Part shown: positions 21,866 through 38,078 of the stretch, one piece after another
How positions within the stretch are numbered: the stretch's first letter is position 1
Layout: each line of letters begins with the position of its first letter
From: Pseudomonadales bacterium
GTDB taxonomy: Bacteria; Pseudomonadota; Gammaproteobacteria; Pseudomonadales; Azotimanducaceae
Direction: 5' to 3'
Assembly (NCBI GenBank): GCA_007122315.1
Contig: SKUB01000196.1
Location: 1 to 39,109, forward strand
DNA length: 39,109 nucleotides
The notes under the pieces: generated by a model
Databases searched by the model: none
Told to the model about the DNA's origin: nothing
The model's input: only the letters and a program-made list of their open reading frames with translations
Position numbers and translations under genes: made by a program

Positions 21866-22744
21866 GTGGCACGTCGGCGGGTCCAGGAAGAGCATGTCAA
21901 TCACGAGGCGTGGGCGATCCCGTACGGCGATCTGATCACGCTGCTGCTCGCGTTTTTCGTGGTCATGTACGCGCTATCTTCAGTGAACGAAGGCAAGTAC
22001 CGCGTGCTCTCCGATTCCCTGGTCGCGGCTTTCCGGGGCGCACCGAAATCACTGGAGCCTATACAGATCGGTGAGCTGTCGAAGTCCTTTCACGAGTTGC
22101 ATCTCAGTGAACAGCGTACGCTGGTGCCGTTGGAGGTCGAGGCTTTCATCCGCGACGACGATTCCGGCTTGCGGAGTCGCGACGTGGGATGGAGCGTTCG
22201 CGGCGATGACTTCGACACGCCAGCAAGCCAGGACTGGGCTGAACGCATGATCGAATCGCTGTTCCAGGCGATCGTCTCCGAACTGAACGAGCTCATCGAG
22301 GAGGACCTGGTCACCGTCAGACAGAACCAGTACTGGCTCGAGGTGGAGATCAACACGAGCCTGCTGTTCGAGACGGCAAGCGCACAGCTTGCAGATCAGG
22401 CCGAAGCCATCGTTGCGCGGCTGGCGGGCATTCTGGCGCAGGCCGACATACGGCTTCAGGTCGAGGGCCACACCGACTCGCGTCCGATCAACACAGAAAT
22501 ATTTCCCTCGAACTGGGAACTGTCCACGGCGAGGGCTGCCAATGTGGTGCGCATGTTCGGCAACAATGGCGTGGATCCGGCGCGCATGGCTGCGGTCGGG
22601 TTCGGAGAGTTCCGACCGGCAGCGGACAATTCGACCCAGGCCGGCCGTACCAAGAACCGGCGCGTGATCATCGTCGCCATGGCGAAACGGGACGACCACG
22701 CAGTGGATACCCGAGTTGCGGAGATGAATGCCCCGGGCATTTGA
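21866..22744 (+). CDS. motD: MotD, MotB-family stator subunit
   Basis: Stator partner of MotC, anchored to peptidoglycan. It has 292 residues: one N-terminal membrane helix with the ion-binding Asp22 (PYGDLITLLLAFFVVMYALS), a long periplasmic linker, and a C-terminal OmpA-like domain (VEGHTDSRPINTEIFPSNWE, TARAANVVRMF, KNRRVIIVA). The start codon is GTG, with AGAGGA a little upstream. The linker is longer than in the MotB at 24085. In Pseudomonas the MotCD pair supports swarming and movement in viscous media; that role here is inference. Confidence 0.93.
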   Translation: MARRRVQEEHVNHEAWAIPYGDLITLLLAFFVVMYALSSVNEGKYRVLSDSLVAAFRGAPKSLEPIQIGELSKSFHELHLSEQRTLVPLEVEAFIRDDDSGLRSRDVGWSVRGDDFDTPASQDWAERMIESLFQAIVSELNELIEEDLVTVRQNQYWLEVEINTSLLFETASAQLADQAEAIVARLAGILAQADIRLQVEGHTDSRPINTEIFPSNWELSTARAANVVRMFGNNGVDPARMAAVGFGEFRPAADNSTQAGRTKNRRVIIVAMAKRDDHAVDTRVAEMNAPGI

Positions 22745-22812
22745 TGCTGCCCGAACGTGGACGAAGCGGAGTGGCCGTCGCTGCTCATTCCCCTGCCGAA
22801 GGAGTGAACGTG

Positions 22813-23004
22813 ATGCGTAGCATCGGACCAAGAGACCCCGTTCTGCCCGTGAGACCCGTAGCACCGGTAAGGCGTCCAGGTGTCGAGGATGATTCCCCCA
22901 GGGATCGTCGCCGCGACGGCGACGACTACAGGACTGGCCGGAAGCGCGCCGATCCCGATGGACCAGGACGGTCCTCCACCGGTGGTGTGGACGAGATGGC
23001 CTGA
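22813..23004 (+). CDS. Small Pro/Arg/Asp-rich hypothetical protein
   Basis: Unrecognised 63-residue protein. It starts with a proline-rich stretch (DPVLPVRPVAPVRRPG), continues with a highly charged Asp/Arg middle (RDRRRDGDDY) and ends in GGVDEMA. It has no membrane segment and is probably disordered. The start is well supported: AAGGAG (22799-22804) lies 8 nt before the ATG. It sits between motD and the sigma-28 promoter of motA, in the place where ParA-like, CheW or DUF2802 genes often stand in related clusters. Its function is unknown; a structural or chemotaxis-linked role can only be guessed from position. Confidence 0.6.
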   Translation: MRSIGPRDPVLPVRPVAPVRRPGVEDDSPRDRRRDGDDYRTGRKRADPDGPGRSSTGGVDEMA

Positions 23005-23058
23005 ACGCCGACAAAGTTCGGGGTCGGTCAGGGGCGCTCAAGAACACCATTCGCGAAC

Positions 23059-23086
23059 TCAAGATTGACCGCTTACGTGCCGATAA
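23059..23086 (+). promoter_or_regulatory. Sigma-28 (FliA) promoter of motAB
   Basis: TCAAGATT-N12-GCCGATAA: the -10 element is a perfect match to the FliA consensus and the -35 element matches 7 of 8 with TCAAGTTT. Transcription should start near 23093, leaving about 115 nt of leader before motA. This puts motA and motB in the late, FliA-controlled class. Confidence 0.8.
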
Positions 23087-23207
23087 CAACTTAGCGTGCG
23101 GTGCTCTGCATGACCAGGACAGGAAGGTGCCTGTTGTCCCAGGCGCGCTGCACGAGTCGCAGGTGATCCTGCAGAACTGAGTTGGTCGGACCGAGAGTGG
23201 TTGTCCC

Positions 23208-24065
23208 ATGGGTATCGTCGTTGGAAGCCTCGTTGTCATCGTTTCGGTTCTCGGTGGCTTCATGGCGCATGGTGGTCAACTGTTGGCCATCTGGCAGCCC
23301 TTTGAAATCGTCATCATCTGCGGCGCAGCCTTGGGCGCGTTCGTCATTGCCAATCCGCGATCGACAGTGATGAAGGTGGGGCGGTCGATTCCCGCCATCT
23401 TCAAGGCCGGGCCCTACGGTAAGGACCGTTACCTCGAACTGCTGCGATTCATGCACGCTCTGTTCGCCAAGTCGCGGAAAGAGGGTCTCATCGGCATCGA
23501 GTCCGACATCGATGATCCGCAGAACAGTGAGCTGTTCCAGGCCTTTCCGGCACTGCTCCAGGATGCGTCCACACGAACCTTCATTCAGGACTACATGCGA
23601 TTGATCATCGGCGGCGAGATGGACGCGTTTCAGCTCGAAAACCTGATGGATGTGGAGCTCGAGACCCACCATCATGATGTCGCCGAACCGGGCCATGCGC
23701 TCAATCGGGTCGCTGATGCGCTCCCCGGTTTCGGAATTGTGGCTGCTGTGCTCGGGATCGTGAATACCATGCAGGCCCTTGGCGGGCCGGTGGAGGAGAT
23801 CGGCCAGCTCGTGGCGGCTGCTCTGGTGGGAAGTTTCCTGGGCATTCTTCTTGCGTACGGTTTCGTGGGACCGCTGTCCACCGCGCTCAGCCAGCGTGGT
23901 GAGGAGGAGGCGCAGTTCTTCACGACCATCAAGACCTGTCTGCTGGCCAGCCTGCGCGGCTACGCACCCAAAGTTGCGGTGGAATTCGGTCGTAAGTCCA
24001 TTCCCAGCAAGCTGCGGCCTGGCTTCGACGATCTCGAAGCCGAGCTCAAGGCTGAGCGCCGCTGA
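23208..24065 (+). CDS. motA: MotA, flagellar stator subunit (E. coli type)
   Basis: Stator subunit with four membrane helices that applies torque to FliG. It has 285 residues, the length of E. coli-type MotA. The family stretches IGIESDIDDPQNSELFQ, DVELETHHHD, LPGFGIVAAVLGIVNTMQAL and LLAYGFVGPLSTAL are present, with both functional prolines. The ATG has only a weak ribosome site. It is the second, distinct stator A gene in the window. motB follows after 19 bp. Confidence 0.96.
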   Translation: MGIVVGSLVVIVSVLGGFMAHGGQLLAIWQPFEIVIICGAALGAFVIANPRSTVMKVGRSIPAIFKAGPYGKDRYLELLRFMHALFAKSRKEGLIGIESDIDDPQNSELFQAFPALLQDASTRTFIQDYMRLIIGGEMDAFQLENLMDVELETHHHDVAEPGHALNRVADALPGFGIVAAVLGIVNTMQALGGPVEEIGQLVAAALVGSFLGILLAYGFVGPLSTALSQRGEEEAQFFTTIKTCLLASLRGYAPKVAVEFGRKSIPSKLRPGFDDLEAELKAERR

Positions 24066-24084
24066 GACCGCTGGAGTGCCTGCC

Positions 24085-24927
24085 GTGTCTGAACAGCCCA
24101 TCGTCATCAAGCGCATCTTCAAGGTCGACGGTCATCACGGCGGGTCCTGGAAAGTGGCGTTTGCCGACTTCGCCACGGCCATGATGGCGTTCTTCCTGCT
24201 GATGTGGATCATGGGCCAGACCACGGAGGAGCAGAAGGGTGCGATTTCCGAGTTCTTCAACAATCCTTCTGCGGTGCCCGGCACCAGCAGCATACCGCCC
24301 GCTGCGGCATCATTCGGTGATGGCGGCCCGAGTAACGCCATGATCGACCTCGGCGGCAGCATGGAACTGCCGCGGGCAGACAACGCCGAGCTCGATGCCG
24401 CCGAGACGAACCGGGCGATGCTCAAGGATCTCCGTCAGGAGCTGATGCAGGCCATGGAAGAGCAGTCCGGGCTTGCAGACTATACGGACCACATCCTCAT
24501 CGACATCAGTCCCGAAGGGCTGAGGATACAGATCGTCGACCAGGAGAGGCTGTCCATGTTTCCGCTGGGCAGTGCCAGCCTCGAACCCTTTGCGCGGCAT
24601 CTGATCGGTCAACTGGCAGGGATTCTCGGCAAGGACGACCTTCTCATCAGCATTTCGGGGCACACGGATTCGCTTCCGCTGGTTCGGGCGGGTTACAGCA
24701 ACTGGGAGCTCTCCACGGATCGTGCCAATGCGGCCCGCCGCGCACTGGTCGAGGCCGGCTTGGACGAGGCAAGGCTTGGGCGGGTCGTGGGGCTCGGCTC
24801 GACCGTTCCGTTGCTTGACGAGGATCCCGCCCACGCCGTGAATCGCCGCATTTCCATATTGGTGATGAATCAGGAAGCCATCGATTCGATGCGCGCCGCA
24901 GCGCGGGGACTCGTGGTGAGCAAGTGA
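24085..24927 (+). CDS. motB: MotB, flagellar stator subunit (E. coli type)
   Basis: Peptidoglycan-anchored stator partner of MotA. It has 280 residues: a basic N terminus (IVIKRIFKVDGHHGGSWKVA), one membrane helix with the proton-binding Asp28 (FADFATAMMAFFLLMWIMG), a plug region (QKGAISEFFNNPSAVPG), and a C-terminal OmpA-like domain (ISGHTDSLPLVRAGYSNWEL, NRRISILVM). I chose GTG 24085 because GGAG (24073-24076) is 8 nt upstream; GTG 24076 overlaps that site. A longer upstream frame lies inside motA. It shares the sigma-28 promoter of motA and is convergent with the HDOD gene. Confidence 0.95.
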   Translation: MSEQPIVIKRIFKVDGHHGGSWKVAFADFATAMMAFFLLMWIMGQTTEEQKGAISEFFNNPSAVPGTSSIPPAAASFGDGGPSNAMIDLGGSMELPRADNAELDAAETNRAMLKDLRQELMQAMEEQSGLADYTDHILIDISPEGLRIQIVDQERLSMFPLGSASLEPFARHLIGQLAGILGKDDLLISISGHTDSLPLVRAGYSNWELSTDRANAARRALVEAGLDEARLGRVVGLGSTVPLLDEDPAHAVNRRISILVMNQEAIDSMRAAARGLVVSK

Positions 24928-24996: not shown

Positions 24997-25887
24997 TCAC
25001 AGAGCCAGCATCTCACCGACTTCCTGGGCGTCCTCACGGACGGCCATGATGATGTCGGCATCCACACCGAGGCGTTCAGCCTGCGGCATCTGCATGATCG
25101 CTTCCTGATCCACGTCTTCGTTGCGCTCTCCAGCTGCGATCGCAACGGCGACTCCGAGCAGGTCATTGATGTCGTGGGAGTAGTCCTGTTGCTCATCGGG
25201 TGTGGACTGCTGGCCGATGGCCTGAATGGCCTGCTCTGGCAGATTCCAGGACTCTGCGATGGCACTGCCGACGATGGGGTGCCAGTCGTCGATGAGTCCT
25301 GAGGCGGCTCCCTCGCCCTGTGTCGAGTCCATTTTGAGCCCGCAGCGGCTGAGGATGTAAATCCGTCCGATGTTGTGGACCAGTCCCAGCGTCAGCATCT
25401 CGTCTGGATGGGCGCGCCGGGTCCGGCGTGCCAGGGCATGACAGAGTCCGGCGACCATTCTGCTCCGTTCCCATTCCGGATCGAGCAGATGCTGAATGCG
25501 GCGGAACTCCTCGGCCCTGCGCAGCTGCTGCAGGGCGAACTGCATGCTGATGCTTCGGACGAGCTTCAATCCAAGCCGCGCGATGCCCGTGACGAGGCTG
25601 GTGGTTTCGGAGCCGCTGCGGCGATAGATCACCGAGTTCGCCACTTTCAGCAGCGTGCCTGCGAGGATGGGTTCGCTGGCCACCAGGTCGGCGATCTGTT
25701 CGGCGCTGCAGTCCTCCCTGTCGAGGGCGGCGCGGATCAGCACCACCACTTCGGGCAGCGAGGGCAGTTGCAGTTCTCCGCTTGACAGCTCTGCTGCGAG
25801 ATCCTTGATGATTCGAAACGCGACGCTTTCCTCGCTCCGGTCGGTTTCGGTTCTAAGCATCGTTCGTGCCTCGGCGTCCACAATCAT
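24997..25887 (-). CDS. HDOD domain protein
   Basis: Signalling protein of the HDOD family, a metal-free relative of HD phosphohydrolases, usually an output or protein-interaction module. It has 296 residues, with the HDOD domain at about 38-240 (LPSLPEVVVLIRAALDRED, SEPILAGTLLKVANS, LGLVHNIGRIYIL). The N-terminal 35 residues have no recognisable domain and the C terminus is acidic. GGAG lies 9 nt upstream of the ATG. A sigma-28-type promoter stands just upstream, so it probably belongs to the flagellar regulon. Its partners are unknown. Confidence 0.9.
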   Translation of the reverse strand: MIVDAEARTMLRTETDRSEESVAFRIIKDLAAELSSGELQLPSLPEVVVLIRAALDREDCSAEQIADLVASEPILAGTLLKVANSVIYRRSGSETTSLVTGIARLGLKLVRSISMQFALQQLRRAEEFRRIQHLLDPEWERSRMVAGLCHALARRTRRAHPDEMLTLGLVHNIGRIYILSRCGLKMDSTQGEGAASGLIDDWHPIVGSAIAESWNLPEQAIQAIGQQSTPDEQQDYSHDINDLLGVAVAIAAGERNEDVDQEAIMQMPQAERLGVDADIIMAVREDAQEVGEMLAL

Positions 25888-25904
25888 GCTGCCGTTCTCC
25901 GCCT

Positions 25905-25916
25905 GGAATGCATTCC
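25905..25916. repeat. 12-bp perfect palindrome in the HDOD leader
   Basis: GGAATGCATTCC is a perfect palindrome between the predicted sigma-28 start (near 25921) and the HDOD start codon at 25887. It could be an operator or an RNA hairpin near the ribosome site; no function is known. Confidence 0.35.
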
Positions 25917-25927
25917 GCTAGTCAGAG

Positions 25928-25954
25928 GTGTCGGCAGCAGGTGGGATAACTTGA
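25928..25954 (-). promoter_or_regulatory. Sigma-28-type promoter of the HDOD gene
   Basis: Read on the minus strand: TCAAGTTA-N11-GCCGACAC. The -35 matches 7 of 8, the -10 matches 6 of 8 (GCCGA intact), and the 11-nt spacer is exactly the FliA spacing. Transcription would start near 25921, about 34 nt before the ATG. Confidence 0.6.
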
Positions 25955-25962
25955 GGGCCGGC

Positions 25963-27219
25963 TCACAGGGCGGCGAACATTGCGCCATGTGCCCATTGCA
26001 CGGCATCCGGATAAAGTGCCGCGAGCCGCTCCAGGGGCAGGTCCGATGCCGCTTCGCGGGCCGACTCCCATTGGCCACGCTCATAGGCGATGACGCAGCG
26101 TAACGCGCGCCCGTAGCGACCCTCTCCTCGCAGCAGTGCGGCAGTCGCCTCGGCGCTCAGCGGCAGCTGACCCAGGACGTCGGCCAGCGGTTGATCCATG
26201 AACGCATCGAGGGTCGAAAACAGCCCAATGGTGAAAGCCGTGCCCGCATCGTGATCGGGAAGCAGGGCGCAAAGTTGCTCCGTCATGCGGGCCCGCGTCA
26301 GTGTCAGGAGCAGCAGTTCAGCGTGCTTGTCGTCCGCCCGCGCGATGGCCGTCAGGCTGACCCAGCGCTTGACCGCATCGAGACCGATGTAGACGACGGC
26401 CCTGTGAACCGAGGTCACCCGCTTGGGGAGTCCCACCGCAGCGGAGTTGATGAAACGCATGAGCCGGTAGCTCAGCCCCGGATCCTGAGCCACCAGGTCG
26501 GTCACCTGCTCGATGGTCGTAGAAGGGTCGTGAAGGGTGCTCAGAAGGCGCAGCGTCGCGAGTCTGTTGGCCGGCAGGCGGGAGCCGGTGATGATATTGG
26601 GCCGGGCGAAGAAGTAACCCTGAAAGTAGTCGCATCCGAGTTCGAGCAGGGCTTTGTACTGGCCATGGGTTTCCACTTTCTCTGCGAGCAGCTTGACGCC
26701 GAGGGGTGCCAGATGCTCCACGTGGCGTGCGACTTCCTCGGAGCCCAGCGCCAGTACGTCGAGCTTGATGATCGTGGTCCACTCGATGAGAGGCTGCCAG
26801 CGCGGCGCGAGTACGAAGTCATCGAGTGCAAGCCGGTAACCCATCAGGGCCAGCTCGCGAACGGACCTCACCAACGCGTCATCCACCACGACATCCTCGA
26901 GAATTTCCAGCACCACGCGCTCAGGAGGCAGCGTCAATGCGGCGCCGGAGACGAGAAAGTCATGGGTCACGTTGATATAGGCCGTGTCCTGAGCAACGAG
27001 GCGGTCGAGGCCGATGTCCATCAGCGCGGCCGTGACGACGTGGGCGGTGGCGTACTCGCCATCATGGACTTCTGCATGGTCGAGCTGATCCCCCCGGTAA
27101 AGAAGCTCATAGCCATGCAAGCTGTGCGCGCGGTCGAATATCGGCTGGCGCGCCACCATCACCGTGGAGGCGGGCGACTGGCGGCGCTCGATCCCGCTGT
27201 GGGGCTCGATCACGGTCAT
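25963..27219 (-). CDS. EAL-HDOD protein (YuxH/CdgJ type)
   Basis: Putative c-di-GMP phosphodiesterase or sensor of the EAL-HDOD family, which includes the V. cholerae motility regulator CdgJ. It has 418 residues: EAL domain at about 20-215 and HDOD domain at about 220-410. Key EAL residues look retained in diverged form: YELLYRG for EAL, INVTHDF (Asn), LEILED (Glu), LDDF, KLD, AEKVE and FQGYFF. Catalysis is therefore possible but untested. The frame is closed by a TGA just before the ATG, so the start is fixed. A 16-codon leader frame with a good ribosome site ends in an ATGA overlap with this start. It follows the hybrid kinase gene by 87 bp on the same strand and is probably co-transcribed with it. 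Confidence 0.9.
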   Translation of the reverse strand: MTVIEPHSGIERRQSPASTVMVARQPIFDRAHSLHGYELLYRGDQLDHAEVHDGEYATAHVVTAALMDIGLDRLVAQDTAYINVTHDFLVSGAALTLPPERVVLEILEDVVVDDALVRSVRELALMGYRLALDDFVLAPRWQPLIEWTTIIKLDVLALGSEEVARHVEHLAPLGVKLLAEKVETHGQYKALLELGCDYFQGYFFARPNIITGSRLPANRLATLRLLSTLHDPSTTIEQVTDLVAQDPGLSYRLMRFINSAAVGLPKRVTSVHRAVVYIGLDAVKRWVSLTAIARADDKHAELLLLTLTRARMTEQLCALLPDHDAGTAFTIGLFSTLDAFMDQPLADVLGQLPLSAEATAALLRGEGRYGRALRCVIAYERGQWESAREAASDLPLERLAALYPDAVQWAHGAMFAAL

Positions 27220-27306: not shown

Positions 27307-28950
27307 TTACTGACCGAGGGCTTCCTCGATGGCCTCGGTCAGGGCGCGGATCGAGAACGGTTTGATGAGGACCCGCTCGTCCGCATGCAGGGTGGCTTCT
27401 CCATCCGGCGGGCACTCGGCATACCCGGAGGCGAACAGCGTGCGGATGCCCGGGCGCAGGGCCTGTATGTGTCGAGCAAGCTGGGGCCCGGTCATTTTCG
27501 GCATGAGGATGTCGGTGAGCAGCAGATCGATGGGTCCAGTGTGTTCCGTGACTCGAGCGATGGCTTCCTCTCCGGAGCTGGCGGCAAGCACGGTGTACTC
27601 GCTGCGCTCGAGCATCAGTCGCGTGACGCGGAGCACATGGGGGTCATCGTCTACGAGGAGGATGGTCTGGCGGCCGCCCTTCGGTACGGATTCGGCAACC
27701 ACGATGCTCTGCTCGACTGACCGCTCGGCTCGGGGAAGTAAAATGGAGAAGCTGGTCCCCCGCCCGGGTGCGCTTTCGCACCAGACATGGCCATGGCTCT
27801 GCCGGATCAGACCTTTGACCGTTGCCAGCCCCAAACCGGTTCCGCTGCCGACCTTTTTGGTGGTGAAGAAGGGGTCGAAGATTCTGTCCAGGGTGGCAGG
27901 GTCCATGCCATGCCCGGTGTCGGTGACGGTGAGCAGTGCATAGGGACCCGGCGTCATGCCGGGCAGCAGGCGCGAGTCTCCCGAAGCGAGCTGCAGCGCA
28001 GATGTGGCGATGGTCAGCGTGCCTCCCGATGGCATGGCGTCACGGCTGTTGCCGCCCAGATTCAGCAGAATCTGTTCGAGCTGGAGCGGATCGATCTCGA
28101 CGGGCCACGAACCGAGCCCGAGTTGAAGCTGCACCTGCACGTGTTCGCCGATGAGGCGGCGCAGAATGCTTGCCTGACCCTCGATGGCCCGGTCGAGCTC
28201 GATGACCCTGGGTTCGGACTCGCTGCGACGTGAGAACGTCAGCAGCATGCGCGTGAGCAGGGTGGCCTGGTCACAGGCGCCGCGGATCGCATCCATATCG
28301 TCCCTGATCTCCTCGTCGTCGGGCAGGGCGCCGTGAACCAGTTCCAGGGTGCCGCTGATGATCGCCAGGAGGTTGTTGAAGTCATGGGCCACGCCGGTCA
28401 CGAGCTGGCCGACGGTCTCCATTTTCTGGGCCTGGCGGAGATTGGACTCCAGGTCGAGGCGCTCGCTGACATCGCGGACTGACGCCAGCACGCAGTTCCC
28501 GGACTCGATCCAAAGCGGCCGCAGGGTCACTTCCACTGGGAGCTCACTGCCGTCCCGACGGCGTGCCGTCGAAGGTCGTCGGGACGCCTTGGTCACAGGG
28601 TCCGCGCTGGGCAGAAGCGGACGCCGCATGACCCGCAGGCGCTCAGGCACATGGTGCGGAATCAGGCTGTCGACGAGCTCGCCGATGAGCTCTTCCCGGT
28701 CATAGCCGAACATGAGCTCGGCGGGCCGGTTCAGCAGCAGGATGCGGCCCCGGCTGTCGAGTACCAGCATGGCCTCGCTGGCGTGCTCGAACAGGCCTCG
28801 GAACAGCTCTGTGCGGGAACCAGAGCCCCGTGGTTCGTCGAACGCAGTGCGCGCCGTGCGCTCAGTGGCAACCGGGCGGGAGTCCGCCGGCGCTTCCTGA
28901 CCGTCGTAGACGGCCCGAGGCGCAGGCGGTGAAGAGCGCTCGATCGACAT
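27307..28950 (-). CDS. Hybrid PAS-histidine kinase-receiver protein
   Basis: Soluble hybrid sensor kinase. It has 547 residues, with no membrane segment: PAS domain (about 49-163, FEHASEAMLVLDSRGRILLL and REELIGELVDSLIPHH), HisKA with His189 (GVAHDFNNLLAIISG), a HATPase domain with NLGGNSRDAM, DTGHGMD, FDPFFTTK and GTGLGLATV, and a C-terminal receiver with Asp480 (LLLTDILMP) and Lys530 (LIKPF). I chose ATG 28950 because CAGGAG is just upstream; an in-frame ATG at 28998 has no site. A sigma-28-type promoter precedes it. No separate histidine phosphotransfer or output regulator with DNA-binding domain is adjacent; the EAL-HDOD gene downstream is the likeliest functional partner. Confidence 0.92.
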   Translation of the reverse strand: MSIERSSPPAPRAVYDGQEAPADSRPVATERTARTAFDEPRGSGSRTELFRGLFEHASEAMLVLDSRGRILLLNRPAELMFGYDREELIGELVDSLIPHHVPERLRVMRRPLLPSADPVTKASRRPSTARRRDGSELPVEVTLRPLWIESGNCVLASVRDVSERLDLESNLRQAQKMETVGQLVTGVAHDFNNLLAIISGTLELVHGALPDDEEIRDDMDAIRGACDQATLLTRMLLTFSRRSESEPRVIELDRAIEGQASILRRLIGEHVQVQLQLGLGSWPVEIDPLQLEQILLNLGGNSRDAMPSGGTLTIATSALQLASGDSRLLPGMTPGPYALLTVTDTGHGMDPATLDRIFDPFFTTKKVGSGTGLGLATVKGLIRQSHGHVWCESAPGRGTSFSILLPRAERSVEQSIVVAESVPKGGRQTILLVDDDPHVLRVTRLMLERSEYTVLAASSGEEAIARVTEHTGPIDLLLTDILMPKMTGPQLARHIQALRPGIRTLFASGYAECPPDGEATLHADERVLIKPFSIRALTEAIEEALGQ

Positions 28951-29363
28951 GGACTTCTCCTGCCCTGACGCGGGTATGACGTTTGCCCGTGAACGCATCG
29001 TGTTGTGCGCGATGGAGGTTATCGGTCGCCGGGCGGAAAAGTTGAGGCGGCCGGGATGAGGGCCGGAACCCTGGCCACCGATCGGGGTCGGAGATTGAAC
29101 AGGCCCGCGGGCCGGGCGGCGCTAACGGCTGCCGTGACTGGGTTGCCTTGCTTCCGTTTCGTGATGCGAGTACGGTCTGCCAGCGTTGGCGGGGGCCGGA
29201 GCTCCGCAAACAGGAGTCACCTGAGTTCAGTGGGCAAGGGAAAGGAAGTGCATCGCTTGGCGCCCCGTGCGTCCGTTCGTTCCGGAACCCTGGCCGGCAC
29301 AGCAGGGGTGGGTGCCTCTTACCTGCCCGCATGGCTCTCCGCACCAGCGTGGCCCCAGCCGCG
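28951..29363. other. 413-bp divergent intergenic region
   Basis: Region between the hybrid kinase (minus) and the HsbR-like gene (plus). It holds the sigma-28-type promoter of the kinase at 29019-29045. From about 29046 to 29363 I see no convincing promoter for the HsbR-like gene, no RNA gene and no protein-like frame; the open frames there have arginine/proline-rich composition typical of GC-rich noncoding DNA. Confidence 0.5.
29019..29045 (-). promoter_or_regulatory. Sigma-28 promoter of the hybrid kinase gene
   Basis: Read on the minus strand: TCAACTTT-N11-ACCGATAA. Each element matches the FliA consensus (TCAAGTTT / GCCGATAA) at 7 of 8 positions, with the exact 11-nt spacer. Transcription would start near 29012, about 60 nt before the ATG at 28950. 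Confidence 0.75.
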
Positions 29364-30527
29364 ATGACATGTCCGCGTCTGCTCCTGATCGACGATCTCG
29401 GTTCCGAACGCGAGGGGCTCGCATCGCGGCTCAGGGAGCGGGGTTTCGTCGTGGATGAGACCGCCAGCGGTGAGAACGCTCTGGCGTTGGCCGAGAGTCA
29501 TATCCCCGATCTGATTCTATGTGAACTCCACATGGTCGATGCCGACGGGCTGTCCATGCTCGAGCGGCTTACCGGTGACCTCCCGGATGTCCCGCTGATC
29601 GTGATCACTGAAGGCTCCGACATGAGCGACGTCATGAAGGCGTTGCGGCTCGGGGCGGCCGATTACCTGTGGAAGCCGGTCGTGGACCTGGACGTTCTGA
29701 TTCACGCTGTGGAGTCCGCTTTGGAGCGCACCCGGCTGCGGCAGGAGAACTCCCGCTTCAAGCAGGAACTCGAGGCGGCCAACAAGCAGCTCCAGGAGTA
29801 CCTCGAAGAGCTGCAGCAGGATCAGCGCGCAGGCCGGGAAGTTCAGCTCGGCATGCTGCCGCCGACGCCCATGGCCATCGATGGCTTTCGCCTCCAGCAT
29901 CACATCATCCCATCGCTCTTTCTCTCCGGTGACTTCGTCGACTATTTCCGCATCACCGATCGGCACTTCGTCTTTTTCATTGCCGACGTGTCCGGACATG
30001 GGGCCTCGTCGGCGTTCGTCACCGTGCTGTTGAAGAACTTTTCACGGCGACTGCGGCGCGAGTACCGGCCACGCATGCTCGATGCGCCGGGAGAGGTGCT
30101 GCGCTGGCTCAACCAGGAACTGCTCGAGAGCCAACTCGACCGCCATGTCACCATGTTCATGGGCATCATCGACTGCCAGGATGATCGCCTCGCCTATGCC
30201 AATGCCGGGCATTTTCCGGCTCCGGTGCTGGTTGTCGGTACGGAGGCCCGCTATCTGGAGCTGCCCGGCAAGCCCCTGGGACTGTTTCCGGACGCCAGGT
30301 TCGCGTCCGCGTCCATGGATCTGCCGGAGCAGTTTCGTCTGGCGCTGTTCTCGGATGGAGTCTTCGAGGTGATGAGTGAGTCCAGTCTCGCCGCCAAGGA
30401 GAAGCGCCTGATGGACGCGGCTGCTGCCATCGCGAACCTGACTGACCTGTGCACGGACCTGGGGCTCACGCCCGGCCTCGAGGCTCCCGACGACGTCGCC
30501 TGCCTGCTTCTGTCACGAGGTGGTTGA
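29364..30527 (+). CDS. hsbR: HsbR-like receiver-SpoIIE phosphatase, lacking kinase domain
   Basis: Putative serine phosphatase acting on the STAS protein encoded next. It has 387 residues: receiver domain (1-120), coiled coil (about 125-165, rich in Glu/Gln/Leu), and a SpoIIE-type PP2C domain with metal-site motifs SGDFVDYF, IADVSGHGA, FSDGVFEVM and APDDVACLLL. In the receiver, the acidic pair (IDD), Thr and Lys (LWKP) are present, but the phospho-acceptor position is Glu54 (LILCELHMV) instead of Asp. Pseudomonas HsbR continues into a HATPase kinase domain; here the protein ends after the phosphatase. The ATG 29364 has no clear ribosome site; ATG 29331 in the same frame is an alternative. The stop overlaps the STAS gene (TGATG). 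Confidence 0.85.
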   Translation: MTCPRLLLIDDLGSEREGLASRLRERGFVVDETASGENALALAESHIPDLILCELHMVDADGLSMLERLTGDLPDVPLIVITEGSDMSDVMKALRLGAADYLWKPVVDLDVLIHAVESALERTRLRQENSRFKQELEAANKQLQEYLEELQQDQRAGREVQLGMLPPTPMAIDGFRLQHHIIPSLFLSGDFVDYFRITDRHFVFFIADVSGHGASSAFVTVLLKNFSRRLRREYRPRMLDAPGEVLRWLNQELLESQLDRHVTMFMGIIDCQDDRLAYANAGHFPAPVLVVGTEARYLELPGKPLGLFPDARFASASMDLPEQFRLALFSDGVFEVMSESSLAAKEKRLMDAAAAIANLTDLCTDLGLTPGLEAPDDVACLLLSRGG

Positions 30528-31039
30528 TGGAACCCGGACGTATCCTGGTCGGTGACCATAACGGCATCTATGTCCTCAAGTTCACCGGTGACGTCCGCGT
30601 TACGTTGTGTGCGACCGTGGATTCTTTCCTGCGGGTACTGTTGAACAGAGACGACTTTCGGGCCGTTATCGTCGATCTCACGGAGACCGAGGGTATCGAC
30701 AGCACGTCCCTGGGTCTGCTGGCGCGACTTTCGCTGGAGACGAAGAAGCGCTTCGGTTTCATCCCCACGCTGGTCTCCACCGAGCCGGACATCACTCGGC
30801 TCCTGCAGACCATGGGCTTCGACGATGTCTTTCACATCGTCGAGGAGCCACTGGTGGAGGAGGCGCAGCTGGGTGAACTGCCGCAGCTCGAGACTGACGA
30901 GGAGGATGTGCGGCAGCGCGTGCTGAAGGCGCACCGTACCCTGATGAAGCTGAATGACCGCAACCGGGAAAACTTCCAGGATCTGGTCACCGCCCTGGAA
31001 GCCCAGGCTCCCTCCAATGCCACTCGGAACGCTCGCTGA
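30527..31039 (+). CDS. hsbA: STAS-domain anti-sigma factor antagonist, HsbA-like
   Basis: Anti-anti-sigma type switch protein, the likely substrate of the upstream phosphatase. It has 170 residues: STAS domain (about 5-100) with the phosphorylation loop GIDSTSLGLL, in which Ser59 is the expected phospho-site, and a helical, charged C-terminal extension (about 105-170). In Pseudomonas aeruginosa HsbA binds the anti-sigma factor FlgM or the cyclase HsbD depending on its phosphorylation; transfer of that role here is inference. It starts in a TGATG overlap with the phosphatase gene. I do not see the kinase that would phosphorylate Ser59 in this window. Confidence 0.88.
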   Translation: MEPGRILVGDHNGIYVLKFTGDVRVTLCATVDSFLRVLLNRDDFRAVIVDLTETEGIDSTSLGLLARLSLETKKRFGFIPTLVSTEPDITRLLQTMGFDDVFHIVEEPLVEEAQLGELPQLETDEEDVRQRVLKAHRTLMKLNDRNRENFQDLVTALEAQAPSNATRNAR

Positions 31040-31050
31040 CCTCTCAGCGA

Positions 31051-31082
31051 GCGAAACCGTCAGGAAGCGGGGCGGGTTTCGC
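31051..31082. terminator. Possible hairpin between convergent hsbA and TerB genes
   Basis: GCGAAACC (31051-31058) and GGTTTCGC (31075-31082) form an 8-bp stem with a 16-nt loop across the convergent gene ends. It lacks a T-run, so it is at best a weak bidirectional terminator. Confidence 0.3.
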
Positions 31083-31515
31083 GCTTGGCCTGAATGAAGT
31101 CCGAATGGCGTACGTGGAGCAGGCCGGCAATCCGGCGGATCAACTGCTCCTCGAACTGATGCACGGCCCCGTCCGCCCACGCCACGCGCCACATGTTGCG
31201 GATCACCGCGATGCGTCCGGGCTGGCCCCAGCGCTCGGCGATGAGTCGGGTGAACTGGTAGAGATCCGTAGCTGTGGCCAGTTCCTGCTCCGCCAGCGCG
31301 ATCAGTTCCTCGATCTCCGCATGCGGCAGCTCGAAGATCTCCTCCAGCGCCCGGATCACCCGCTCGCTGGCCGCGGGATCCTGGTTGGAGTCGGCGCGCA
31401 TCACCTCGATCATCAACGCAGCGGTGGCGAGTGCCAGAGGATCGGTCTGACCGGGTACCTCAGACGGGTCCTGGTCGAGTCGATCCTCGAAGAAACGTCG
31501 TATGGCGGCGAGCAT
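31060..31515 (-). CDS. TerB-family protein
   Basis: All-helical protein of the TerB (tellurite-resistance B/DjlA N-terminal) family; its biochemical role is unknown. It has 151 residues, with the TerB core at about 25-140: LATAALMIEVMRADSNQDPA, ERVIRALEEIFEL, and a second half NMWRVAWADGAVHQFEEQLI. The acidic positions after each first helix (RADSNQD, WADGAVHQFE) fit the family's metal-binding pattern. ATG 31515 lies 7 bp after the dusA stop on the same strand, so the two may be co-transcribed; a longer frame upstream overlaps dusA. Such genes commonly stand alone, and a link to tellurite is not implied. Confidence 0.85.
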   Translation of the reverse strand: MLAAIRRFFEDRLDQDPSEVPGQTDPLALATAALMIEVMRADSNQDPAASERVIRALEEIFELPHAEIEELIALAEQELATATDLYQFTRLIAERWGQPGRIAVIRNMWRVAWADGAVHQFEEQLIRRIAGLLHVRHSDFIQAKRETRPAS

Positions 31516-31522
31516 GGTCGCT

Positions 31523-32563
31523 TCAGGCCGCCTGGGCGAGGGTTGGGTCGACGGCGGCCAGCGCCCGGTCCAGCACCTCGACACCGGCACCGTCCCGGCA
31601 GCCCTGCTCAGACAGGATGCGGCGGAACTGGCGAGCGCCTGGACGCCCGAAGAAGAGACCGAGAAGGTGTCGGGTCATGGCGTGGAGTGGGACGCCATCG
31701 GCCAGACGCGCCGCCAGATACGGCCGGTACGCCGTGACGGCGTCCGCAGCGGTGACCGCGTCGCCCTCGCGGTGCAGCAGCGCGGCCGCGAGGATGCCGA
31801 GTACCTCGGGGCGGCCGTAGGCTTCGCGGCCGAGCATGACCCCATGGGTATGCTGAAGCTCCCGTTCCGCGTCGGCCAGGGTCTTCAGGCCACCGTTGAT
31901 GACGATCTCCAGGTCCCGGCGATGCGCCGCAAGGGCGTGGACCCGGTGATACTCGAGCGGCGGAATCTCGCGGTTTTCCTTGGGCGACAGGCCGCCGAGA
32001 ATCGCCTTGCGGGCATGGACGATGAACAGGCTGCAGCCAGCGTCCGCGACTCGCTCGACGAACGCATGAAGGTGCTCCGTGCTGTCGTGCTCATCGACGC
32101 CGAGCCGGCACTTGACCGTTACCGGAACGTTCACCTCTGCGCGCATGGCAGCGATGCTGTCGGCGACCCGCTCCGGTTCGAGCATGAGGCAGGCCCCGAA
32201 GCGGCCCGACCGGACCCGGTCGCTCGGACACCCGACGTTGAGGTTGATTTCATCGTAGCCGGCCTCGGCGCCGATGCGCGCGGCTCGCGCCAGTTCCCTG
32301 GGATCGCTGCCGCCCAGTTGCAGGGCGACCGGGTGCTCGCAGGGATCGAAGGCCAGCAACCGGTCGCGGTTGCCATGGAGCAGTGCAGCCGCAGTGACCA
32401 TTTCAGTGTAAAGCACGATGCCAGGGCCGAATCCGCGCAGAAAGGTTCGTGCGTGACGGTCGGTGCAATCCATCATGGGCGCGACGCACAGGCGATGGCT
32501 GCCCCAGGCCCCGAGGGGGCCGCTGCCGTGGATCATGGGCGTGTGTTCCGATGTGCCTGGCAT
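31523..32563 (-). CDS. dusA: tRNA-dihydrouridine synthase A
   Basis: FMN enzyme that reduces uridine 20/20a in the D-loop of tRNAs. It has 346 residues. The N-terminal HRLCVAPMMDCTDRHAR, the catalytic Cys112 in NVGCPSDRVRSGRFGACLM (DusA-type signature), KCRLGVDEHDS, HARKA and the closing NGG are all present. I chose ATG 32563; it has no strong ribosome site, and ATG 32536 is an alternative that would still leave the whole domain. A weak promoter with -10 TATCAT stands upstream. It is divergent from gltX. Confidence 0.95.
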   Translation of the reverse strand: MPGTSEHTPMIHGSGPLGAWGSHRLCVAPMMDCTDRHARTFLRGFGPGIVLYTEMVTAAALLHGNRDRLLAFDPCEHPVALQLGGSDPRELARAARIGAEAGYDEINLNVGCPSDRVRSGRFGACLMLEPERVADSIAAMRAEVNVPVTVKCRLGVDEHDSTEHLHAFVERVADAGCSLFIVHARKAILGGLSPKENREIPPLEYHRVHALAAHRRDLEIVINGGLKTLADAERELQHTHGVMLGREAYGRPEVLGILAAALLHREGDAVTAADAVTAYRPYLAARLADGVPLHAMTRHLLGLFFGRPGARQFRRILSEQGCRDGAGVEVLDRALAAVDPTLAQAA

Positions 32564-35828: not shown

Positions 35829-38078
35829 GTGCGGCCTGTTCCTGTGCTGACGCCTGCGGAGCATGATCTGGTCCTGCTTGGCGGTGGCCATAGCCACCTC
35901 GCGGTGCTGCGCCGCTGGGCGATGCGGCCTCAGCCGGGTGTGCGACTGTCCCTGATTGCGCGGGAACTGCATACACCCTACTCGGGCATGTTGCCGGGGC
36001 TCATCGCCGGCCACTACGACTTCGACGCGTCCCACGTGGATCTTGGCCCGCTTGCGGTCGCCGCCGGAGCCCGTCTGATTCATGCAGAGGTTTGCGGCCT
36101 CGATGCGGACGCGAAGCGGCTGCACTTCGCCGACAGGCCGCCGCTGCGATACGACACGCTGTCCATCAATTCCGGCGCGACACCGTCGATCACGGGTGTG
36201 GCAGGCGCCGTGGAGCGTCTGCGTCTGGTGAAGCCCATTTCCCGGTTTCTGCCCGCGCTCGACGCGGTCCTTGGGCGCGTGGCGGGCTCCAAAGAGGTGC
36301 TGGATCTGGCTGTGGTCGGAGGCGGGGCGGGTGGCGTGGAACTCATCCTCGCCTTGGCCTGCCGGCTCGAACAGCTCGGCTGCCGTGAGCGCGTCCGGCT
36401 GCAGCTGGTGACCGGTTCCAGCCGGCTGCTGCAGAGCCATGCGTCGGACGTGGCACGGAAGATGACGCGTGAACTCGAGCGTGCCGGCGTGGCGGTGGCG
36501 ATGAGCGCGACGGTGGTGGAAGTGGAAGCTGCCGCATTGCGTTGTGCGTCTGGTGCGCGTATCGCCGCGGATGAAGTCTTCTGGGTGACCGGGGCGGGGG
36601 CGCCGGAATGGGCCCCATCATCCGGTCTCGCGGTGGACGACGCCGGATTCATCCGGGTCGGTCCCAGCCTGCAGAGCCTCTCCCATGAGGATGTTTTCGC
36701 AGCCGGTGATGTGGCCGCGTTGAGCCACGCACCGCGGCCCAAATCCGGGGTTTACGCCGTACGTGCCGGTGCCGTGCTCGCCCATAACCTCGGGGCATGG
36801 ATCAGGGGGGCGCCGCTGCGTCGCTACCAGCCTCAGCGTCGTGCGCTCTATTTGATCTCGACTGGCGATCGGCGAGCTATCGTAGCCCGTCCGGGCCTGC
36901 CGGCGCTGCTCGGAGCCTGGGTGTGGCGGTGGAAAGACGTGATCGACAGGCGCTTCATGGCGCGCTATCAGCGTCTTCCCCAGATGAAGCAGGATCCGCC
37001 GCGATCCGTGGTGGCGCCGAGTCGCGGTGGCCAGCGTCTGGCGGTCGGCATGCGCTGTCGCGGCTGTGGCGGCAAGATCGCCGTGCGCCCCCTGACGGGA
37101 GCGCTGGGGCGTCTGCCGGGAGCGGGTGAAGGGGGGCGCCTGCGTTTCGAGGACGCGGCCAGGCTTCCCGTGTCCGGGCTGCTTCTCGAGCAGACCATCG
37201 ACGGCTTCGCGCTGCCCGTCAGCGACCCTTATCTCGGTGGCAGGCTGGCGGCGTTGCATGCGCTCGGGGACCTCCATGCCATGGGGGCGGATCCTGTTGG
37301 GGCCCTGGCGCTTGCTGGCATTCCGTTTGCCGGGGATGCGCAGATGGAAGAAGACCTGGCGTTGCTCATGGCGGGTGTGGAGCGGGAACTTACTGCTGCG
37401 GATTGCCCTCTGCTGGGTGGGCATTCCTGCGAAAACGATTCGCTCAGCCTCGGTCTGGCACTCACCGGCCGGATTCCGGAGGACGACCCCGGTCGAGTCC
37501 TGGGCAAGGACCGGCTGCTGCCCGGCCAAGCCCTGGTGCTGACCAAGCCCTTGGGTACTGGTGCGCTGCTGGCCGGCGCCGCGTCCGGACGCATTGCGTC
37601 CCGCGACTTCGAGGCGGCGCTCGCTGTCATGCTGATGTCCAACGGTCCTGCCCTGGCGCACCTGCACAGGCATCGGGCCACGGCCTGCACTGACGTGACC
37701 GGCTTCGGCCTGCTCGGCCATGCGTTGGAGATGGCCCAGGCATCAGGCTGCACGCTGGAGCTGTACCCGGAGCGCGTCACGCCTCTGCCCGGGGCCCTGG
37801 AGGCCATCGCGGCTGACATCGTCTCGAGTTTGCAGGTCGCCAACGAGGAGGTGATCGCGGCCACTGACCTCGGGTCCAGCATCGCAGCCGATGCGCCGCT
37901 CGCGCGCCTGCTCTGCGATCCCCAGACCTGCGGTGGGCTGCTGTTCTCAGTGCCGGAGACGGAGGCGGCAGCGTGTGTCGCTGCTCTTCGCGCAGCGGGC
38001 TTCCCCGCCGCGAGTATGGTGGGCCGGGTGTGCCGGTCCGAAGCGGGGGCACGTCCGCTCCGGCTCGGCCCTGCCTGA
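35829..38078 (+). CDS. selD: Bifunctional FAD/NAD(P) oxidoreductase-selenophosphate synthetase
   Basis: Makes selenophosphate from selenide and ATP, the selenium donor for selenocysteine and selenouridine. It has 749 residues in two parts. The N-terminal part (about 13-370) is a pyridine nucleotide-disulfide oxidoreductase of the known SelD-fused family, with FAD site VLLGGGHSHLAVLRR, NAD site AVVGGGAGGVE and a closing FAAGDVAAL. The SelD part (about 400-745) has the catalytic Cys413 and Lys416 in GCGGKIA, CTDVTGFGLLGH and LLCDPQTCGGLL. Cys (not Sec) occupies the catalytic position, and the second E. coli cysteine is Gly415. The GTG start at 35829 has only a weak ribosome site; the exact start is uncertain by several codons. 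Role of the oxidoreductase half, perhaps supplying reduced selenium, is inference. Confidence 0.93.
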   Translation: MRPVPVLTPAEHDLVLLGGGHSHLAVLRRWAMRPQPGVRLSLIARELHTPYSGMLPGLIAGHYDFDASHVDLGPLAVAAGARLIHAEVCGLDADAKRLHFADRPPLRYDTLSINSGATPSITGVAGAVERLRLVKPISRFLPALDAVLGRVAGSKEVLDLAVVGGGAGGVELILALACRLEQLGCRERVRLQLVTGSSRLLQSHASDVARKMTRELERAGVAVAMSATVVEVEAAALRCASGARIAADEVFWVTGAGAPEWAPSSGLAVDDAGFIRVGPSLQSLSHEDVFAAGDVAALSHAPRPKSGVYAVRAGAVLAHNLGAWIRGAPLRRYQPQRRALYLISTGDRRAIVARPGLPALLGAWVWRWKDVIDRRFMARYQRLPQMKQDPPRSVVAPSRGGQRLAVGMRCRGCGGKIAVRPLTGALGRLPGAGEGGRLRFEDAARLPVSGLLLEQTIDGFALPVSDPYLGGRLAALHALGDLHAMGADPVGALALAGIPFAGDAQMEEDLALLMAGVERELTAADCPLLGGHSCENDSLSLGLALTGRIPEDDPGRVLGKDRLLPGQALVLTKPLGTGALLAGAASGRIASRDFEAALAVMLMSNGPALAHLHRHRATACTDVTGFGLLGHALEMAQASGCTLELYPERVTPLPGALEAIAADIVSSLQVANEEVIAATDLGSSIAADAPLARLLCDPQTCGGLLFSVPETEAAACVAALRAAGFPAASMVGRVCRSEAGARPLRLGPA

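Follow-up and report, generated by a model that had tools for sequence, protein, structure and literature searches.

The window, by which is meant the whole stretch of 39,109 nucleotides that was analysed, carries an operon of two genes: rssB, which encodes a protein with a receiver domain, a helical linker and a phosphatase domain of the PP2C (SpoIIE) type, and rssC, which encodes a STAS-domain protein with a D-S-T site (Table 1). The ATG codon assigned to rssB is aligned with the start codon of the orthologous gene in five other genomes of the genus. RssC matches NCBIfam NF045506 with E 1.1e-59, at a score under the 250-bit cut-off of that model. Its Ser59, within the D-S-T motif, is presumed to be the phospho-site by comparison with other STAS anti-sigma factor antagonists, and the D-S-T site is invariant in 144 of 144 RssC sequences (143 loci and the window). 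A STAS frame adjoins rssB on the same strand at 143 of 144 loci, within the set distance at 138 of them and with a further overlap at the other five, these larger overlaps stemming from frames that were taken from stop to stop. One locus (L045 of genome G103) encodes an RssB-like protein with the full canonical receiver quartet, no RssC found alongside and a histidine-kinase-like frame adjoining; this protein is possibly a paralogue.

Several other genes surround the operon. The hybrid histidine kinase gene that is divergent from rssB, the product of which was considered as a possible partner of RssB, is conserved beside rssB at two other loci (L009 and L010); no match to it was found upstream of rssB at L011, L012 and L013, where 3.0, 3.0 and 2.1 kb of upstream DNA, respectively, were searched. 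The gene of the TerB-domain protein, convergent with rssC, is conserved at L009, L010 and L012, and the frame of 749 codons farther downstream at L293 and L295. A dusA gene lies near the rssB-rssC operon in the window, and a dus gene is also found at a locus of a distant family (L296), where the translations give the order dus-tal-rssC-rssB and the Dus, RssC and RssB matches were confirmed by tblastn.

Table 1. Features of the rssB-rssC locus and neighbouring genes, with positions in the window.
Feature	Positions	Strand	Evidence or remark
Frames resembling MotB, MotA and a second MotB	21866..24927	+	Translation only; flagellar motor cluster upstream
HDOD protein and EAL-HDOD protein, in a row	24997..27219	-	Adjoining the hybrid histidine kinase
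Hybrid histidine kinase	27307..28998	-	PAS, HisKA, HATPase and receiver; best NCBIfam model CckA, far under cut-off
rssB, 387-aa receiver-linker-PP2C (SpoIIE) protein	29364..30527	+	Translated ORF; NCBIfam, PDB and Pfam matches
Receiver domain, residues 5-116	29376..29711	+	PF00072 (Response_reg) at residues 7-116, E 2.5e-21; modelled alternating strands and helices
Acid pair D10 D11	29391..29396	+	Kept
Codon 54, GAA (Glu)	29523..29525	+	Phospho-acceptor position
T82	29607..29609	+	Kept
K104	29673..29675	+	Kept; aligned with K108 of E. coli RssB
Long helix 109-164, linker between receiver and phosphatase	29688..29855	+	AlphaFold2 model
SpoIIE/PP2C phosphatase domain, residues 199-385 by Pfam	29958..30518	+	PF07228, E 2.2e-33; Asp/Gly/His signature intact
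rssC, 170-aa STAS protein	30527..31039	+	Start ATG overlaps rssB stop by one base (TGATG); NF045506, 200.7 bits
Ser59 of RssC, in D-S-T motif	30701..30703	+	Presumed phospho-site
TerB-domain protein	31060..31590	-	PF05099, E 2e-32
749-aa frame	35829..38078	+	Reads like NADH-dehydrogenase-type flavoprotein fused to selenide water dikinase (translation only)

Identity of the phosphatase

Of all NCBIfam models, that of Pseudomonas RssB (RR_RssB_Pseudo, NF045505) fits the protein best (413.7 bits, E 7.6e-124, residues 5-385 of 387). The score does not reach the curated 700-bit cut-off of this model, which is a narrow one: of 390 genomes drawn from the order, 275 are matched by the model at E 1e-50 and 17 reach the cut-off, all of them of family code f21. 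The top match in the PDB is RssB of P. aeruginosa (3eq2, E 8.3e-106, 47% identity in the structural match), and an AlphaFold2 model of the window protein (built from 55 aligned proteins of the window and other loci, mean pLDDT 93.9) is superposed on a further P. aeruginosa RssB structure (3f7a) with a TM score of 0.83. E. coli RssB is matched over residues 5-283 (E 2.1e-18).

The architecture, too, is that of P. aeruginosa RssB and its partner RssC, with a receiver, a long helical linker, a complete PP2C domain that has its signature residues (one of which, D190, lies just ahead of the start of the Pfam match), no HATPase domain, and a STAS gene in the same operon. What is missing of a Pseudomonas-type RssB is the phosphorylatable aspartate of the receiver, which P. 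aeruginosa RssB possesses and which is replaced by Glu54 in the window protein. The PP2C domain of E. coli RssB, in contrast to the complete one encoded here, is C-terminally truncated and inactive (PMC12143880). A Pfam scan of the 387 residues at E 0.001 found no family beyond Response_reg and SpoIIE, and the statement of the initial annotation that the protein ends after the phosphatase domain, without a HATPase domain, is correct. Two other parts of that annotation are superseded: the protein had been labelled HsbR-like, in place of which NCBIfam, structure and gene order all favour RssB with its partner RssC, and the lack of a kinase domain had been taken as informative, but the PP2C domain is followed by at most 25 residues in every one of the 261 RssB proteins aligned in this study, so that this absence is ordinary and predicts nothing. 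HsbR/HsbA of P. aeruginosa and CrsR/CrsA of Shewanella likewise have a receiver and a PP2C phosphatase that acts on a partner of the STAS type, with a link to RpoS or FlgM (PMC6482189), but HsbR and CrsR carry a kinase or anti-sigma domain that the window protein does not have, and both the curated model and the structure side with RssB.

Glutamate at the phospho-acceptor position

Translation, alignment and structural model agree that residue 54 of the window RssB, where the initial annotation had placed a glutamate in the acceptor position, is indeed the glutamate that occupies that position. Glu54 lies opposite the Asp of the motif VICDLRM in P. aeruginosa RssB (3eq2), in an alignment without a gap, and opposite residue 58 of E. 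coli RssB. In the AlphaFold2 model, strand 3 (residues 50-53) is followed at its C-terminal end by residue 54, in the usual place of the acceptor; strand 1 (residues 5-9) is followed by D10 and D11, which we take to be the Mg site of the receiver; strand 4 (residues 78-82) ends in T82, presumably the switch Ser/Thr position; and strand 5 (residues 100-103) is followed by K104. A different Asp as acceptor, which was looked for, is excluded by the ungapped alignment and by the model, in which strand 3 leads directly into residue 54. The protein accordingly has a PF00072 domain of the aspartate-less kind, with Glu54 rather than Asp at the acceptor position.

All six genomes of the genus (the window genome and G001-G005) encode Glu in the codon-54 column, as GAA in five cases and GAG in one, which excludes a sequencing error or an oddity of a single genome, and all six keep D10, D11, T82 and K104. 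Five congeners that emerged from a separate scan are apparently G001-G005 themselves, having identical scores, and were counted once; a sixth match (L014) covers the receiver part only. Within the genus, dN/dS is 0.05-0.18 for the receiver, as estimated from 13 of 15 pairs (two being saturated at synonymous sites), and 0.035-0.137 for the phosphatase; the least saturated pair (the window and L028) gives 0.117 versus 0.035, and most other pairs have dS >1, which makes their ratios rough. Amino acid identity within the genus is 0.77 for the receiver versus 0.86 for the phosphatase, the corresponding values in the Asp-bearing family f21 being 0.83 versus 0.82. Judged by these ratios, the receiver of the genus is under purifying selection, yet less constrained than the phosphatase.

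In a tree of 48 chosen rows, the genus (100/98) falls inside a clade of 27 rows (98/97) that also holds genus g5, the RssB of which has the complete canonical quartet, and lineages in which the receiver is partly or wholly decayed. In 26 of the 36 family codes, many of which contribute just one or two genes, every scorable member has Asp; for this reason Asp is most simply regarded as the ancestral acceptor.

Loss of the receiver aspartate across the order

An alignment (MAFFT) was made of 261 RssB proteins from 260 genomes, belonging to 36 family codes of one order. It comprises 136 proteins of f1, the family code of the window genome (a match at E 1e-45 is found in 136 of the 206 f1 genomes), and 125 from 124 other genomes, which were chosen by hand from 262 with a match in such a way that low-scoring families were deliberately included. 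After exclusion of four sequences without the acceptor region, 257 are scorable, of which 120 have Asp, nine have Glu and 128 have another residue; the 137 of 257 without Asp are a count in a sample steered towards low scorers, not an unbiased frequency, and the residue calls in strongly decayed receivers hang on the one MAFFT alignment. Receivers without Asp occur in 10 of the 36 family codes, three of which have no Asp at all: f25 (three genes), f33 (one) and f37 (eight). Family f37 has His at the acceptor position in eight of eight proteins (L219-L222, L224, L226-L228), and RpoS is present in all eight genomes.

Parsimony on one FastTree phylogeny of the PP2C columns requires a minimum of 20 switches between Asp and any other state. 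The nine signature positions of PP2C (five Asp, three Gly and one His), by comparison, are invariant in all 261 proteins. Mean identity among non-Asp receivers is 19% versus 42% in their own PP2C domains, whereas Asp-bearing receivers average 38% and their PP2C domains 43%. By these comparisons the acceptor has been lost many times, while the phosphatase signature and the STAS site never changed in the sample.

Pseudo-receivers, and Glu in them, are already well known (PMC12632262), and the window protein resembles them in having Glu in place of Asp; to this it adds a phosphatase domain and no kinase domain. Pseudo-receivers in RssB, and their repeated appearance next to an untouched phosphatase and STAS partner, were not found described in the open-access papers searched, and a term search in the main text of PMC12632262 and of another review of pseudo-receivers met no mention of RssB.

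Occurrence of RpoS

In A. vinelandii and P. aeruginosa, the degradation of RpoS by ClpXP requires RssB as well as RssC, as stated in PMC12923157, which cites Rodriguez-Martinez et al.; their role in RpoS degradation in Pseudomonadaceae is also described in PMC12143880. The window genome has an RpoS-like sigma factor (contig G000:C275), which scores 355.6 bits with the RpoS model PRK05657 (cut-off 394) and 346 to 347 bits with TIGR02394 (cut-off 378.7). Such a factor is present in all six genomes of the genus, in each case under the curated cut-off (335.7-350.3 versus 378.7 bits). In G002 (G002:C138, 8737-26019; L293 and L294) and G003 (G003:C189, 37775-55082), the divergent rpoS gene follows rssB on the same strand at a distance of approximately 15 kb.

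A match to RpoS at E 1e-92 was found in only 32 of 206 f1 genomes versus 72 of the 80 genomes searched outside f1, absence being scored as no match at E 1e-92, with the f1 genomes also searched at E 1e-65 and the coverage outside f1 being 80 of 124 genomes. Seven genomes that are single contigs keep both RssB and RssC: G065 (locus L093), G066 (L077), G208 (L108), G209 (L099), G210 (L105), G225 (L085) and G226 (L128). The canonical receiver quartet occurs in none of them, and at E 1e-65 each has one match to the RpoS model, at the level expected of RpoD, and no RpoS was found. The RssB-RssC pair is thus able to persist in the absence of a recognisable RpoS.

Among 213 genes for which both traits were scored, loss of Asp54 is associated with loss of RpoS if kinship is ignored (Fisher p 4e-11). 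The association has p 0.30 within f1 and p 0.025, which is weak, outside f1, and 13 phylogenetically independent pairs give a median p of 0.375 (0.5 if the full quartet is scored), the pairs that differ being too few for p to fall to 0.05. With kinship taken into account, no correlation of receiver loss with RpoS loss has been established, and none is claimed; family f37 retains RpoS alongside a His receiver.

Possible role of Glu54

The sequence comparisons show an orthologue of RssB that combines Glu54 with the remaining pocket residues of the receiver and with a phosphatase signature, a partner that has the D-S-T site, a receiver under purifying selection, and an RpoS-like factor in six of six genomes of the genus. 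The RssB of the window is an orthologue whose pseudo-receiver is most likely frozen in a phosphorylated-like state by Glu54, a reading to which a probability of about 60% may be assigned. With Glu as acceptor, the receiver of this partner-switching operon cannot be phosphorylated on Asp; Glu54 would contact T82 and K104 and hold the receiver in the phosphorylated-like state, as has been proposed for the D58E form of E. coli RssB. RssB would then bind sigma-S and dephosphorylate RssC constitutively, the activation of the phosphatase by Glu54 being a prediction. It would be deaf to histidine kinases and to acetyl phosphate, and control would be left to the phosphorylation of RssC by some kinase, to the level of expression, or to anti-adaptor-like proteins.

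The pattern of K104 bears on this. Seven of the nine Glu-bearing proteins keep the lysine, as do 90 of the 120 Asp-bearing ones, against 2 of the 128 that have any other residue. This distribution suggests that Glu is used as an acidic group in contact with the lysine, as Asp or phospho-Asp would be, and is not mere decay; the association of Glu with Lys comes from no more than two independent lineages, namely the genus and L279 (family code f36). At the latter locus (L279/L296, genome G304), the second independent RssB with Glu keeps the threonine and the lysine, its acid pair being changed to E-G; G304 has no RpoS match at E 1e-92. The two other receivers with Glu (L049 and L112) are without T82 and K104 and look merely decayed.

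The closest precedent is the D58E form of E. coli RssB, a laboratory mutant in which Glu stands at the identical position and the sensor lysine is kept, as in the window RssB, where Glu54 is natural. D58E is reported to bind sigma-S at approximately 75% of the level of the phosphorylated protein and to be no longer stimulated by acetyl phosphate, whereas D58K, which is not a mimic, binds significantly less; K108, the reported sensor of phospho-Asp, contacts Asp58 and is required (PMC7226468). A loss of sigma-S degradation is reported for D58E and D58K alike (PMC7226468), which makes Glu an imperfect mimic. In the initial annotation, the phosphatase was expected to be fixed in the active state and to keep the STAS partner unphosphorylated, or else to be controlled in another way. 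A fixed state agrees with the Glu at the acceptor position, the retention of T82 and K104, which are the residues that would sense a phosphoryl group, and the D58E precedent, but STAS dephosphorylation need not be the sole output: locking by Glu54 may concern the capture of RpoS as well as, or instead of, the dephosphorylation of RssC.

Receivers that have no acceptor at all still accompany intact phosphatases in related genes, which argues against a mimic of the on-state, since the state of the receiver may matter little; the activity of some of the pseudo-receivers tested, too, is independent of the residue at the D position (PMC12632262). The main rival reading, which is less likely, is that Glu54 marks an early stage of receiver decay, phosphorylation having already become unimportant and Glu being the first substitution tolerated before erosion of the pocket, as seen in the majority of the genes of this family. 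Within family code f1, 116 of the 132 scorable genes lack Asp (those of the six genus genomes among them), the changes over the order number at least 20, non-Asp receivers have diverged far beyond their own PP2C domains, and within the genus the receiver evolves faster than the phosphatase, all as decay would have it; moreover, Glu is the commonest residue to replace Asp in pseudo-receivers (PMC12632262), so that drift through Glu is possible. Decay does not readily account for the retention of D10, D11, T82 and K104 throughout the genus, for a receiver dN/dS that stays at approximately 0.1, for synonymous variation of codon 54 between GAA and GAG, or for the loss of K104 that almost always accompanies other substitutions.

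Less probable still is a lock of the receiver by Glu54 in a state that is inactive or neutral, with RssC and the linker as the sole routes of RssB regulation, or a role of Glu54 in dimerisation. The lowered degradation of sigma-S by D58E in E. coli (PMC7226468) fits such a lock, and the D residue of GlnR and RamR is used for dimer formation rather than phosphorylation (PMC12632262); yet sigma-S binding is strong with D58E and significantly reduced with D58K (PMC7226468), and T82 and K104, which would be needless in a neutral state, are retained. That the protein is an HsbR-like phosphatase deprived of its kinase domain can practically be dismissed, for although the order of receiver and SpoIIE domains is the same and a STAS gene adjoins, HsbR itself consists of receiver, PP2C and kinase domains (PMC6482189), the window protein has no HATPase domain, RssB is both the top curated model and the top solved structure (the comparison covering curated models and solved structures), and the aligned RssB proteins all end shortly after PP2C.

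RssB and RssC as a possible phosphorylation-independent partner switch

This genus has fixed in nature the phosphomimic that was engineered in E. coli, other lineages have discarded the site, and both may be viewed as natural experiments on the importance of RssB phosphorylation, which has been called controversial in an in vitro study (PMC7226468). Tentatively, at somewhat less than even odds, RssB and RssC in many of these bacteria may form a partner switch that is independent of receiver phosphorylation, in which the input was often lost or frozen and the pair outlived RpoS in several lineages, the genus of the window standing for an intermediate step, in which a naturally occurring D58E has frozen the receiver "on". 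On such a reading, the retention of the phosphatase and of the STAS site, together with the persistence of the pair beyond RpoS, would imply that the pair has a second, as yet undescribed target in addition to RpoS and responds to a signal not relayed by a histidine kinase. Comparison of the lineages could show which activity of RssB needs the receiver, the delivery of RpoS or the dephosphorylation of RssC, and the conserved pair of phosphatase and STAS protein may lead to a target beyond RpoS.

Candidate kinases for RssC

A search of the genome for a separate HATPase kinase had been proposed initially. The window genome, which is 93% complete, has 11 matches to HATPase_c_2, and the frames of the best eight (415 to 637 aa) all carry HATPase_c, but no short stand-alone kinase of the RsbW (anti-sigma) type is among these best eight of 11. 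HisKA is matched at E 0.001 by seven of the eight, of which two (L066 and L070) stay below the Pfam cut-off, and one (L065) has no HisKA match. The remaining three of the 11 are in frames of 498, 660 and 864 aa. The second SpoIIE match in the window genome belongs to a protein that fits PP2C (PF00481) better.
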